A stretch of 64,000 bases of DNA from a gamma proteobacterium symbiont of Ctena orbiculata (GTDB taxonomy: Bacteria; Pseudomonadota; Gammaproteobacteria; Chromatiales; Chromatiaceae): the NCBI GenBank assembly GCA_003058525.1, contig QBVD01000037.1, positions 1-64,000 of the forward strand, written 5' to 3'. The notes under the pieces are model-generated. The model made no database searches. It saw nothing but the letters and a program-made list of their open reading frames with translations, and was not told the origin of the DNA. A program made the translations under genes and the position numbers. This document shows, in pieces, positions 1 through 46,757 of this stretch; within the stretch, counting starts at the first letter, position 1; each line of letters opens with the position of its first letter.

Positions 1-246
1 AATCGACTCTGCTGGAGCTGTTTTTTTACCCAGCAAGGCAGAATGAGCGAGGTTTAGCCGTGCTAAATGAGTGAATGATAACGCCGCTGGGTGGAAAAAC
101 AGCCCCAGCCCTTCGGGTTGTGCCTGAAAATGCGCCACTCGGCGTTGCTCGTCGCTCATTTGGAATCACCAAACCTCACTCCTTGCGCCTTGATTGGCGC
201 ATTTTCAGACACAACAGAGCCGATTGGATTAGTGTTAACAGGCCCT
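1..246. repeat. Family A element, inverted dimer (copy A1, left tip cut by window edge)
   Basis: This non-coding element is built from two hairpin modules in opposite orientation. Module 1 (about 11-108) has an outer stem GCTGTTTTTTTACCCAGC pairing with GCTGGGTGGAAAAACAGC and an apical stem TTTAG/CTAAA. Module 2 (about 117-217) has arms GCCTGAAAATGCGCC and GGCGCATTTTCAGACAC and an apical stem TTTGG/CCAAA. Reverse-complemented, module 2 aligns with module 1 across the core that starts AAGGC and ends AACGCC. The right tip (219-246) reads as the reverse complement of the left tip of copies at 6314, 19751 and 46473. A short ORF across it is not credible as a gene. Confidence 0.8.
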
Positions 247-6313: not shown

Positions 6314-6418
6314 GGGCCTGTTGACACTCATCCAATCGGCCCTGCGGGGACTATTTTTTCCAGCAAGGTAGAATGAGCGTTGTGTAGTTATTCTACATGA
6401 GCGAATGATAACGCCAGC
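6314..6418. repeat. Family A element, single module (copy A2)
   Basis: The left tip GGGCCTGTTGACACTCATCC is followed by the module core AAGGTAGAATGAGCG, an apical hairpin TGTAG-ttatt-CTACA and GAGCGAATGATAACGCC. The right outer arm and right tip are missing, so this is a truncated single-module copy. It lies upstream of the antiporter gene, whose start is at 6298. The rest of the gap to 6643 is AT-rich and holds nothing else I recognise. Confidence 0.75.
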
Positions 6419-7923: not shown

Positions 7924-7970
7924 GTGGCCGCAAATGGACGCCAATCAACGCTAATGTCCGCTAATTCGGT
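7924..7970. repeat. Family B element end, partial (copy B4)
   Basis: The stretch GGCCGCAAATGGACGCCAAT followed by CAACGCTAATG matches the left inverted end of the complete family B copies at 16430 and 18870 with several substitutions. No matching right end was found before the GTPase gene at 8092, so this is a relic. Confidence 0.5.
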
Positions 7971-16409: not shown

Positions 16410-16429
16410 TGACAGGGTTTAGCGACTCA

Positions 16430-16638
16430 AGCCGCGAATGAACGCTAATCACCGCAAATATACGCGAATCTTTTTGCCGATCCATGTCATGAGATATTGT
16501 TGAGACTATCAACACTGTGCCAATCGCCCAGATATCGAGTTCTTTCTCATTCGTGATATCTAGTATGCCCTGATCCGGTTGAAATACTTATCAGACTATT
16601 CGCGAAAATTTTACGGTGATTAGCGTTCATTCGCGGCT
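16430..16638. repeat. Family B element, complete (copy B1)
   Basis: The outer ends AGCCGCGAATGAACGCTAAT-CACCG at 16430 and its exact reverse complement ending at 16638 form a 25 bp perfect terminal inverted repeat, extended inward by imperfect pairing to TACGCGAA/TTCGCGAA. The 130 bp interior has no ORF. It lies between dsrB and the EF-G paralogue, 128 bp before the latter's start. Confidence 0.85.
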
Positions 16639-16666
16639 AATCTCCCAATAGATTCATCACCAAGCC

Positions 16667-18839: not shown

Positions 18840-18869
18840 CTACTGACTTGGCAATGGCGGGAAATAACA

Positions 18870-19085
18870 AGCCGTGAATGGACGCTAATCACCGTAAATA
18901 TTCGCAAACAAGGATGGGGATTTCGTGGCTGATAAAACGTGATCAATGGAAATCAATTCCTTTGGCCTAAACAGCCTAGTGCATGCCTGATAAGTGCGGA
19001 GGGTTGAACGGTTATTTTTATGGCGAATCAAGCGATTGAAATATCTTTTGCGTAAATTTGCGGTGATTAACGTCCATTCGCGGCT
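18870..19085. repeat. Family B element, complete (copy B2)
   Basis: The left end AGCCGTGAATGGACGCTAAT-CACCG and the right end, whose reverse complement reads AGCCGCGAATGGACGTTAAT-CACCG, form a terminal inverted repeat with two differences in 25 bp. The total of 216 bp is close to that of copy B1, but the interiors do not look alike. It lies 31 bp after the EF-G stop and 30 bp before the end of the DUF924 gene. Confidence 0.8.
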
Positions 19086-19114
19086 AAATATTTTTTTCCA
19101 TATCCGACAACACG

Positions 19115-19750: not shown

Positions 19751-19904
19751 GGGCCTGTTAACACTAATCCAATCGGCCCTGCTGGGTCTATTTTTTTGTC
19801 CGGCAAGGAAGAATGAGTGATGTGTAGTTGTTCTACATGAGCGAATGATAACGCAGCTGGACGGAAAAATAGACCTTATTACAAGGACCTGTCAATACTA
19901 ATCA
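19751..19904. repeat. Family A element, single module (copy A3)
   Basis: The left tip GGGCCTGTTAACACTAATCC leads into an outer stem GGTCTATTTTTTTGTCCGGC pairing with GCTGGACGGAAAAATAGACC, enclosing the core AAGGAAGAATGAG and an apical hairpin TGTAG-ttgtt-CTACA. The right edge (19883-19904, AAGGACCTGTCAATACTAATC) resembles the left tip in direct rather than inverted orientation, as if a second copy began here and was lost. Confidence 0.75.
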
Positions 19905-25949: not shown

Positions 25950-26480
25950 ATGAAAACCACTGACATTCATATCATCGATAATGGTGTGCTACTGACGCGC
26001 AGTTTCGAGGAGGCGCTTAAGTTCCACCGGGGTAATGCCTACTGGGGCTGCGCGCTTGCCTTTAGAATGTTGCAATACGCGGCACAACTGCTCTCCCGGG
26101 AGAAAACCTGGGAGCGGCAGGATCTCACCATTGAAAGCGGACATCCCGGGCCCGGCGTGAAAGATACGATCGAATATGTCACCGGTTGCGTATCCGCTGG
26201 ACGTTTTCAACTGACCTGCACTACCGGCGAGACCCGTTGTGTAAGTGATATGGAATACAGCTGGCGGGTAAACGACGGCAAGCAGTATCTAACGCTGAGA
26301 CTGGCAGACGGCATAGTCTCATCCGAGTTTCTTCAGCTGCTCGACATCATCAACCGGAATGAGGCAAACGAGCATCACTATGAGCACCTGGAATCACTCA
26401 AAAAGGCCATGACGGAGAAGATCTGGTCCCTTGATCTCGACCAGGCCTTTCCGGATGCACGGCTTATTAGGTCCTGTTAA
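25950..26480 (+). CDS. FmdE-like domain protein
   Basis: A protein of 176 residues from ATG 25950, preferred over the ATG at 25908 because GAGGTG lies about nine bases upstream. It resembles the formylmethanofuran dehydrogenase subunit E domain: FHRGNAYWGCALAFRML corresponds to the FHGH...ALGYRM block and PGVKDTIEYVTGCVSAGRF to the DAIQVLTGC block. The first block lacks the family's usual His/Cys metal ligands, while the second Cys remains. No methanopterin genes are nearby. The last two residues and the stop codon are supplied by a family A tip remnant. The match is my own pattern reading. Confidence 0.5.
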   Translation: MKTTDIHIIDNGVLLTRSFEEALKFHRGNAYWGCALAFRMLQYAAQLLSREKTWERQDLTIESGHPGPGVKDTIEYVTGCVSAGRFQLTCTTGETRCVSDMEYSWRVNDGKQYLTLRLADGIVSSEFLQLLDIINRNEANEHHYEHLESLKKAMTEKIWSLDLDQAFPDARLIRSC

Positions 26481-26490
26481 CAGGCCCTAA
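26469..26490. repeat. Family A tip-to-tip remnant
   Basis: AGGTCCTGTTAACAGGCCCT is a left tip joined directly to a right tip through the shared palindrome TGTTAACA, with no interior. It overlaps the end of the FmdE-like gene and forms its stop codon TAA. Confidence 0.5.
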
Positions 26491-37735: not shown

Positions 37736-37780
37736 TTTGCGTAAATTTTTCATGATTGGCGTTCATTTGCGGCCATTTCT
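37736..37780. repeat. Family B element end, partial (copy B5)
   Basis: TTTGCGTAAATTTTTCATGA followed by TTGGCGTTCATTTGCGGCCAT resembles the right end of copy B2 (TTTGCGTAAATTTGCGGTGATTAACGTCC...) with several changes. No left partner was found. Confidence 0.5.
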
Positions 37781-37820
37781 TATTATCCGCAAACAATCGG
37801 CTATCCAAATGCTGGACCCT

Positions 37821-37852
37821 GGGGCCTGTTACCACTCATCCAATCGGCCCTA
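37821..37852. repeat. Family A left tip remnant
   Basis: GGGGCCTGTTACCACTCATC followed by CAATCGGCCCTA is the left tip of family A, ending within the stop codon of the CofD-like gene (TAG, reverse complement of CTA at 37850-37852). The element is otherwise missing, and the repeat boundary marks the gene end. Confidence 0.6.
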
Positions 37853-40417: not shown

Positions 40418-40466
40418 CGCAAGGCAATTTTTTTATGCGGCAGGCACTTTATTTAAAAAAAGTAAA

Positions 40467-40622
40467 GTCCGCAAATGAACGCAAATATATTTATTTACTG
40501 TATGTAACACAGACTCTAACCTACCGCGAGGGAGAGGTAGGGTGAGAGCGGATGGCTGACAATGGTGGGTAACCAGGAAAAATATTAAAGCTATTTGCGT
40601 TTATTCGTGTTCATTTGCGGAC
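40467..40622. repeat. Family B element, divergent copy (B3)
   Basis: GTCCGCAAATGAACGCAAATA at 40467 faces TATTTGCGTTTATTCGTGTTCATTTGCGGAC ending at 40622. The right end has a ten-base insertion (ACACGAATAA when read inverted). The interior contains no ORF. The gap from 40418 to 40719 holds only this element plus a further TTCGCGAGTATTCGCGGC. Confidence 0.6.
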
Positions 40623-44958: not shown

Positions 44959-45798
44959 TTGCATCAAGATATTAAAATTGGCGTATTTGTCGACGCAGAA
45001 AATGTCAGATATAACGGCGGATACCAGCTGCGCTACGACATCCTGAGGATGTTCGCAGCGCGATATGGCGGGTCCCTTCTCAGGCTCAATACCTACATAG
45101 CCTTCGACCAGGAACGCGCCAAGGAGGATCCCGAGTATCGTCGTCGTGCCATGACCTATCAGCAAATGGTCAGAGAGTACGGCTGGAAAGTCATTGTGAA
45201 GAATGTCCGCCGCTATACGGATGAAGAGGGTAACGTCACCACCAAAGCCAATGCAGATCTGGATATGGCTGTTGATGCCATGTTGCAATCGGAGAAACTC
45301 GACCTGCTGCTTCTCGTCACAGGTGACGGCGATTTTCTGCAGGTCGTGACCGCCCTGCAGGATCGCGGCTGTCGGGTTGAATTGCTCGGGTTCCGCAATG
45401 TTTCGCAGGAATTGCGCAGACTTGTAGACGATTACTATTCGGGTTTTCTGATCCCCGATCTGCTGCCGATCTCATATGAACCGCGCAATGATTGGGGAGA
45501 ACCGGGTTCCTGTGTCCGAGGGGTCTGTGCGAAGTGGTTTCCGGAAAAGGGTTATGGCTTTTTACGTTTTCTCAAACGTATCGATCCTAATATGTGGATT
45601 ATCGATCCCCGCCAGGATGGCTCTCCTTACGAGAGTGTCTTTTGCCATGCCAATGAACTGGCTGACGAAGTCACGGATGAAGTAATGTCAAATCGGGACT
45701 CCATACTCGAATTCTATATCCAAAAGAGTGATAAGGATGACGGCTACGTGGCCAATAATGTACGCCTGGTACCAAGCTATGGCGGCACGGGACTCTAG
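44959..45798 (+). CDS. NYN-domain (LabA/DUF88) protein with C-terminal cold-shock-like domain
   Basis: A 279-residue protein with a TTG start. The first ~165 residues form a NYN/PIN-like nuclease fold: DIKIGVFVDAENVRYNGGYQ at the start, ANADLDMAVDAML with the first acidic pair, and LLLLVTGDGDFLQVVTALQD with the second. The C-terminal part (about 185-279) begins SCVRGVCAKWFPEKGYGFLR, which resembles the GxVKWFNxxKGYGF cold-shock RNA-binding motif. This suggests an RNA-cleaving protein with its own RNA-binding domain. The stop codon adjoins a family A tip remnant. Confidence 0.75.
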   Translation: MHQDIKIGVFVDAENVRYNGGYQLRYDILRMFAARYGGSLLRLNTYIAFDQERAKEDPEYRRRAMTYQQMVREYGWKVIVKNVRRYTDEEGNVTTKANADLDMAVDAMLQSEKLDLLLLVTGDGDFLQVVTALQDRGCRVELLGFRNVSQELRRLVDDYYSGFLIPDLLPISYEPRNDWGEPGSCVRGVCAKWFPEKGYGFLRFLKRIDPNMWIIDPRQDGSPYESVFCHANELADEVTDEVMSNRDSILEFYIQKSDKDDGYVANNVRLVPSYGGTGL

Positions 45799-45820
45799 GT
45801 CCTGTTAACACCCATCCGGC
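45798..45820. repeat. Family A left tip remnant
   Basis: GGTCCTGTTAACACCCATCC resembles the left tip of family A and begins at the stop codon of the NYN-domain gene. The remaining gap to the Nudix gene is short and shows no second end. Confidence 0.45.
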
Positions 45821-46472: not shown

Positions 46473-46684
46473 AAGGCCTGTTAACACTCATCCAATCGGC
46501 CCTGCCGGGAATTTTTTGTCCGGCAAGGCAGCGTGAGCGATGGGTAGTTATTCTGCATATGCTAACAATAGTGCCACTCGGCGTTGCTCGTCGTTCAGTT
46601 GGAATCACCAAACCTCTCTCCTCGCACCTTGATTGGCGCTTTTACAGGGGCAACTGAGCCAATTGGATGTGTGTTAACAGGCTT
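46473..46684. repeat. Family A element, inverted dimer (copy A4)
   Basis: The left tip AAGGCCTGTTAACACTCATC and the right tip GAGCCAATTGGATGTGTGTT-AACAGGC face each other. Between them lie a decayed module 1 (core AAGGCAGCGTGAGCGATGGG, apical stem no longer fully paired) and a module 2 in inverted orientation, matching that of copy A1 (GGCGTTGCTCGTCG...CCAAACCT). The 5' arm of module 2's outer stem is deleted. The element ends about 180 bp before ppx. Confidence 0.8.
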
Positions 46685-46737: not shown

Positions 46738-46757
46738 ATGGGCTGTTAACAGGTTCC
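46738..46757. repeat. Family A tip-to-tip remnant
   Basis: ATGGGCTGTTAACAGGTTCC is again a pair of tips joined through TGTTAACA with no interior, about 55 bp after copy A4. Confidence 0.4.

Follow-up and report, generated by a model that had tools for sequence, protein, structure and literature searches.

The window, that is, the whole stretch of DNA analysed, comprises bases 1-64000 of contig C79 in a draft genome of 4.74 Mb and 112 contigs. Using an nhmmer profile built from 43 full-length elements of a repeat that we call family A (pair counts were used for covariation), we recovered four copies, at 1-245 (E 5.9e-86), 46475-46682 (1.5e-46), 19751-19875 (1.9e-36) and 6314-6416 (6e-28). They are real and form a single family, as a sequence-only reading of the window had proposed. 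No listed open reading frame of at least 100 amino acids overlaps any of them. Out of seven neighbouring ORFs scanned against Pfam, five matched (an amidohydrolase, a Na+/H+ exchanger, DUF924, Nudix and Ppx/GppA) and two had no match.

All four copies lie on the forward strand. Element 1 (1..245; model positions 21-265) is a two-arm element with a left arm at about 11-109, a right arm at about 117-215 and a right TIR that runs to 245 and is followed by TAA; its left tip (model positions 1-20) is absent because the contig begins there. Element 2 (6314..6416; model positions 1-106) consists of a left tip and left arm only. Element 3 (19751..19875; model positions 1-125) also keeps its left tip and arm but has no inverted counterpart on the right, and a fuzzy tip search placed a weak tip, GGACCTGTCAATACTAATCA, in direct orientation 3' of it (19885..19904, forward strand). 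Element 4 (46474..46684) is 211 bp long, has two tips, is internally shortened and has equal length in G056, a single-contig genome of the same species (4.75 Mb). The earlier claim that every copy shares a tip and its inverse holds for Element 4; Elements 2 and 3 are left halves and Element 1 retains only the right tip. That the right half is a related module in reverse complement was borne out, since the 43-element model also matches the opposite strand of 1-245 (1.2e-27). Single and inverted-double forms do coexist, as one-arm and two-arm elements.

The window also holds remnants that the earlier reading had not listed. At 26470..26487 lies an 18-bp tip-to-tip scar, GGTCCTGTTAACAGGCCC, flanked by TTA and TAA and equal in length in G056; Ca. 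T. endolucinida (L070) lacks it at the corresponding position, and the junction bases there differ too. A degenerate 18-bp tip-to-tip palindrome at 46739..46756 is likewise of equal length in G056. A lone family A TIR (37822..37851, forward strand) was found by tip search and nhmmer, and a lone left tip, GGTCCTGTTAACACCCATCC, preceded by CTA, by fuzzy tip search (45798..45817, forward strand).

A second repeat family, based on GCGAATGAACGCTAATCACCGC and partly in inverted pairs, occurs in the window at 7924-7966, 16428-16468, 16600-16652, 18868-18908, 19047-19099, 37736-37788 and 40457-40486; its copies at 7930 and 40457 adjoin length differences relative to G056. Elsewhere in this genome (G000), positions 76183-79666 of contig C30 (L277) gave many overlapping matches to G056 at 77-82% identity and are probably a repetitive coding region.

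Anatomy, fold and covariation of family A

Among 97 distinct two-tip elements, the commonest lengths were 265 bp (n=39), 292 bp (n=15), 227 bp (n=6) and 319 bp (n=4), and the usual complete unit is 265 bp with a TA duplication. It is laid out as TIR, left arm, hinge, right arm and TIR, the right arm being a diverged reverse complement of the left. The TIRs form 28 pairs over 30 columns. A 27-bp hairpin cassette may be present in the hinge, in the right arm, in both or in neither. We considered whether this cassette is an independent REP and rejected the idea: in the 2.0 Mb of G056 covered it occurs at 19 places, of which 18 are no more than 350 bp from a tip and the last shares their flanking sequence. 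Because one-arm and two-arm forms occupy the same site in L171/L175 and in L033/G056, we take one-arm forms to be deletion derivatives. With its 265-bp mode, its 28 TIR pairs and no ORF of at least 100 amino acids over the window copies, the family is short, TIR-bearing and transposase-free, as MITEs are. The interior, at 91% mean column identity across genera, is nonetheless more conserved than would be expected of a MITE needing its ends alone, and this counts against a plain MITE reading.

The full 265-nt strand of one element (L003) is predicted to fold as a three-way junction (z -14.84 as RNA, -13.17 as DNA and -13.86 for the opposite RNA strand). The differing 5-bp apical stems described earlier (TTTAG/CTAAA, TTTGG/CCAAA and TGTAG/CTACA) and the varying outer stems were seen as claimed. 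Covariation was assessed in the 43 full-length elements (262-268 bp) among the 97; the other 54 stood outside the alignment. Across this alignment, 98.4% of the cells pair. Both sides had changed at 22 of 95 pairs, whereas shuffles averaged 10.2, with 0 of 500 reaching 22 (a result not to be read as a probability, since this alignment also supplied the predicted structure and its rows share ancestry), and slid structures gave at most 4. The compensatory changes proposed across copies thus exceed both controls. By stem, they fall at 8 of 28 TIR pairs, 5 of 23 left-arm pairs and 6 of 22 right-arm pairs.

Such covariation, together with the fold z of -14.8, would suit a structured RNA or RNA processing site that serves the host, is spread by transposition and has its fold selected copy by copy. 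In favour of an RNA there is also a wobble skew in the left arm, with 130 G-T against 25 A-C cells (13 against 6 types). The skew is absent from the TIR stem (8 against 31 cells, 6 against 8 types) and from the right arm (37 against 32 cells, 9 against 9 types), so that strand-specific wobble evidence for RNA is not decisive. The TIRs themselves covary, and an Rfam scan of the window at the gathering score returned no matches. The comparison between strains bears on selection in individual copies. Eight orthologous element pairs were used, three of them identical, and L033 and L045, whose interiors are replaced, were omitted. They differ by 19 substitutions, 12 of which lie in stems (paired columns make up 190 of the 270); none of the 12 is compensated and six make or break a pair. 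On this small number of substitutions, nothing visibly ties a resident copy to its own fold: copies drift once in place, and the covariation arose between subfamilies. Copies are, moreover, lost, truncated and swapped between strains. We accordingly give a per-copy host RNA little credence. Of the conserved folded structure proposed earlier, the covariation above controls stands, the left-arm G-T excess leans in its favour, and the idea of a conserved RNA is weakened.

We think that the between-subfamily covariation stems from a requirement that templates be symmetric and able to fold, or from conversion between arms while copies are made, rather than from a host RNA function of each copy. A more specific version, which we offer as speculative and doubtful, is that folding itself belongs to the life cycle: copying or cutting would act on a Y-shaped single strand (the TIR stem and the two inverted arms), arms and the 27-bp cassette would be interchangeable hairpin modules, and repeated template switching between arms would write the compensatory changes. 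If true, family A would be a DDE-type MITE that evolves like a structured RNA without being one.

Target site and candidate mobiliser

The left flank reads YTA and the right flank TAR for 29 of 32 family A elements of this genome, retrieved by searches independent of TA, and for 34 of 36 elements within the G056 stretches. The corresponding figure over all loci of an earlier stage, 78 of 91, is biased because many of those loci came from a pattern that includes TA. All four combinations of the Y and R flank bases occur; as they vary independently, the duplication is TA alone. Four sites occupied here are empty in G056, with flanks 98-99.6% identical. Three hold an intact single TA: CTTA[265]TAACTC here (element length in brackets) corresponds to CTTAACTC there, CACTA[264]TAGTCC to CACTAGTCC and GACTTA[265]TAGGGCC to GACTTAGGGCC. 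At the fourth, the single TA reads CA. The target duplication typical of a MITE is thus seen directly. The 18-bp palindromes had suggested an 8-bp duplication with TGTTAACA as target; we set this aside as the principal reading, since TA is all that the empty sites carry. An older mini element of 39 bp, bounded by the tips GGGCCTGTTATCGT and GGGCCTGTCGACAA (L276, 2841-2879; 1580718-1580756 in G056), has in this strain received a newer 265-bp copy at its TA border.

The sequence-only reading had suggested mobilisation by a TnpA-REP-like enzyme. This did not hold up: inverted ends, a TA duplication and a Y(TA)R target agree with a DDE element, most closely with one of the IS5 type. The search that it proposed, for a RAYT/TnpA or a DDE transposase with matching ends, did yield seven Y1_Tnp matches in this genome, none of them flanked by family A hairpins, and no match to PF01609, PF13586 or PF13358. 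Five of the seven are pieces (three left-end and two right-end) of an IS200-like element that is 642 bp long in G056. The sixth (C45) covers the same part of the profile as these pieces, its end not being recognised, and the seventh and longest gene (C53) has no family A match in its 3.4-kb locus.

In this genome all three IS200-like left-end pieces adjoin family A, either a copy or a remnant. The IS200-like element (loci L395-L397, L399 and L400, and G056 near 960587, 1967254 and 2570026) has ends of its own and joins after CTAG at all six left junctions read (three here and those of the three full copies in the G056 stretches; one degenerate left-end match, without CTAG or a right end, was set aside). 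Four of these junctions touch or interrupt a family A copy or remnant. It looks as though the IS200-like element exploits CTAG borders brought by the MITE and is not the mobiliser of the MITE. An account of family A as REP/BIME-like repeats, moved as single strands by a hairpin-recognising RAYT (Y1_Tnp), could draw on these Y1_Tnp matches, on hairpins in one-arm and inverted-double forms and on the left-arm G-T excess. Against it stand the long inverted ends and the TA duplication at empty sites, the C53 locus without family A, the separate ends and CTAG junctions of the IS200-like element, and TA-flanked 18-bp forms without any hairpin. To our knowledge, REPs leave no TIR or TA duplication. 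We consider this account highly improbable.

The IS5-type reading draws on related genomes. Among 22 genomes of the genus, 13 have PF01609 matches and three have PF13358 matches. The congener G006 carries an IS5-family element of about 835 bp (L215 and L225; DUF4096 plus DDE_Tnp_1; NCBIfam NF033580, transpos_IS5_3), which belongs to what we take to be the IS427 group. This element sits between CTA and TAG. One of its ends, CTA-GGGCCTGTTAACA, agrees with the MITE at 13 of 13 outer bases and then diverges; the other, CTA-GGGGGCGTTAACA, agrees at 10 of 13. An Undibacterium plasmid IS has GGGGCTGTTAACA at both ends, agreeing with the MITE at 12 of 13, between CTA and TAA flanks, and Marinobacter and Pseudomonas plasmid ISs have CTA-GGG at both ends. 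These three ISs are about 830-834 bp long, and C or T precedes TA at six of six ends, the script having required TA only. In G031, the sole carrier among 35 genomes outside the genus, the transposase is 68% identical to that of G006 and its IS has a CTAGGGGGTGTTCTCA end instead. Classical IS5 duplicates 4 bp, whereas family A duplicates 2. The IS5 target motif is given as YTAR in the part of the literature consulted (PMC10359306), and the flanks of family A conform to it.

An autonomous IS5-type member sharing the whole TIR was not among these elements, the agreement being 13 of 13 outer bp at one end before the sequences differ, and no IS carrying all 20 bp of the MITE end was found. Neither this genome nor G056 contains a match to the DUF4096 half of the G006 transposase. 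Several candidates for an autonomous copy were set aside. Tips 420-5000 bp apart occur at 13 loci or more, and the four that were read (L067, L072, L073 and L078) enclose ordinary host genes. Among 100 of the 110 G056 tips that were listed, inspection by eye showed no exact tip facing an inverted partner at the distance expected of an IS; between the tips of the only 1-mismatch pair, 2.3 kb apart, lies an apparent histidine kinase. A PF01609 fragment beside a tip (L227) looks like a degraded MITE right half next to an IS5-like fragment and not like the IS of family A.

An IS630/Tc1-type MITE, like Correia, RUP and ERIC, would also leave the TA duplication observed; the termini of those three families carry TA in the portion of the review consulted (PMC2229807), and PF13358 genes occur in the three genus genomes mentioned above. 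Neither this genome nor G056 has a PF13358 gene, however. None of the four PF13358 loci lies between paired tips, only L238 having tip-like sequence, more than 1 kb from the gene, and the end and the Y(TA)R target are common to IS5-type ISs. We regard an IS630 origin as unlikely. The mobiliser is likely an IS5-family transposase, a class that we infer from the shared ends and target, with its full-end partner missing here and either lost or unassembled.

Remodelling and collapse of resident copies

The comparison between strains took 45 distinct elements or scars from this genome and set them against stretches of G056 that total 2.0 of its 4.75 Mb; 16 had no ortholog there, and some of the stretches were picked around G056 tips, a choice that favours occupied sites. 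Of the 29 places matched, eight are 18-bp scars, all of equal length in G056. Of the 19 longer elements (two listed twice were merged), five are of equal length, four are empty in G056, five have a changed interior and five show other changes (L006, L007, L008, L028 and L055). At L055, G056 keeps a tip remnant, and the site was hence not counted as empty. The five with both tips kept and the interior changed measure 292/265, 265/319, 265/292, 168/292 and 227/265 bp (this strain/G056). At the 227/265 site, where the flanks are 98.2 and 99.6% identical, the G056 copy belongs to another subfamily and is inverted. This swap appears to be one copy replaced through recombination with another; the same TA could also have been hit twice, by separate insertions. 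Across species, the same site can hold a 147-bp element or an 18-bp palindrome (L068/L199), and a 292-bp two-arm or a 174-bp one-arm form (L171/L175).

Because the 8-mer TGTTAACA equals its own reverse complement, it reads the same way in both inverted ends, as a direct repeat, and a deletion from one copy to the other would leave GGGCCTGTTAACAGGCCC, of 18 bp. TA-flanked 18-bp scars (at most 1 mismatch) occur in 22 of 22 genomes of the genus, at 1 to 15 sites each, eight of them here. The product is thus observed, and interior loss between the TGTTAACA repeats is its probable mechanism.

Taken together, the long inverted ends, the TA duplication within Y(TA)R, the empty sites in a sister strain, the high copy number and the genus-wide presence lead us to conclude that family A is probably a non-autonomous MITE, moved in trans by a putative IS5-type mobiliser; after insertion the copies of the MITE drift and are remodelled. 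A trans-acting DUF4096 plus DDE_Tnp_1 transposase of the IS5 family would cut and join at GGGCCTGTTAACA. The two opposed hairpin arms and the optional 27-bp cassette allow a single strand to fold as a three-way junction. Once inserted, a copy drifts, losing arms and gaining or losing cassettes, and whole copies may be replaced through recombination with other copies. With TGTTAACA in both ends, the interior could then drop out, leaving the 18-bp scar.

Distribution, known systems and meaning

With up to two mismatches, the 19-base tip occurs 251 times in this 4.74-Mb genome and the reversed-pattern control gave 0 matches, which excludes a chance origin. Survey of 56 genomes with a 22-base tip (at most 1 mismatch) found it in 22: all 21 of the genus (this genome included) and one of 35 others. 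Exact tip matches, among the matches listed, also fall in Sedimenticola, Thiohalobacter thiocyanaticus and MAGs labelled Chromatiales or Gammaproteobacteria. Family A is found in clam-symbiont sulfur bacteria of this genus, which we take to be Candidatus Thiodiazotropha, and in a few relatives. The 22-base tip (at most 1 mismatch) occurs 183 times in this draft and 110 times in G056. In many contigs, including C1, C2, C15, C31, C34 and C52, a family A tip lies about 226-246 bases from the start or end, as though assembly had halted within near-identical copies, and the draft may therefore undercount the youngest subfamily. Viral, phage and plasmid collections, queried respectively with the exact 22-base tip, Element 1 and Element 3, gave no match.

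Among known systems, IS5-family ISs (DUF4096 plus DDE_Tnp_1) share with family A the outer 13 bp (13/13 and 10/13 in G006, 12/13 twice in Undibacterium) and the Y(TA)R flanks; family A differs in having no transposase, a different subterminal end, and arms and a cassette in place of genes. As described in the consulted part of PMC2229807, ERIC/IRU, RUP and Correia/NEMIS resemble it in being short, with inverted ends, terminal TA and highly paired predicted transcripts, and differ in being armless stem-loops, whereas family A combines a TIR stem, two related inverted arms and a cassette. Its mobiliser is also likely of the IS5 type and not of the IS630 type as for ERIC, RUP and Correia. The CIR repeats of Caulobacter likewise join two arms via a linker, and are listed in the same part of that review without a TIR (PMC2229807), whereas the family A ends pair and bear a TA duplication. 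The MITEs of Candidatus Thiomargarita nelsonii, a large sulfur bacterium, are similar in their high copy number and in a parental IS that was not found, and differ in that the hupL MITE carries a direct repeat of 10 bp and an inverted repeat of 19 bp (PMC4853749), a comparison with family A made by description only. REP, BIME and REPIN share single and inverted-double hairpins with family A; unlike in REP/RAYT systems, no RAYT flanked by family A hairpins occurs in this genome. A search of titles and abstract openings, with the genus name required in part only, found no publications on Thiodiazotropha repeats. The Y-shaped modular interior and the self-collapsing end were not met in the literature searched; family A is otherwise a MITE family of a known kind.

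Family A has been recently active and is present in every genome of the genus searched. Its natural copies document how such elements insert, lose arms, gain cassettes, are swapped and collapse to 18 bp, much of this between two strains of one species. That the core of its ends is self-complementary accounts for the tiny scar, similar to an unrelated palindrome, that a MITE can leave behind. It also carries a warning: strong covariation in a genomic repeat can stem from a mobile palindrome and needs no functional RNA.
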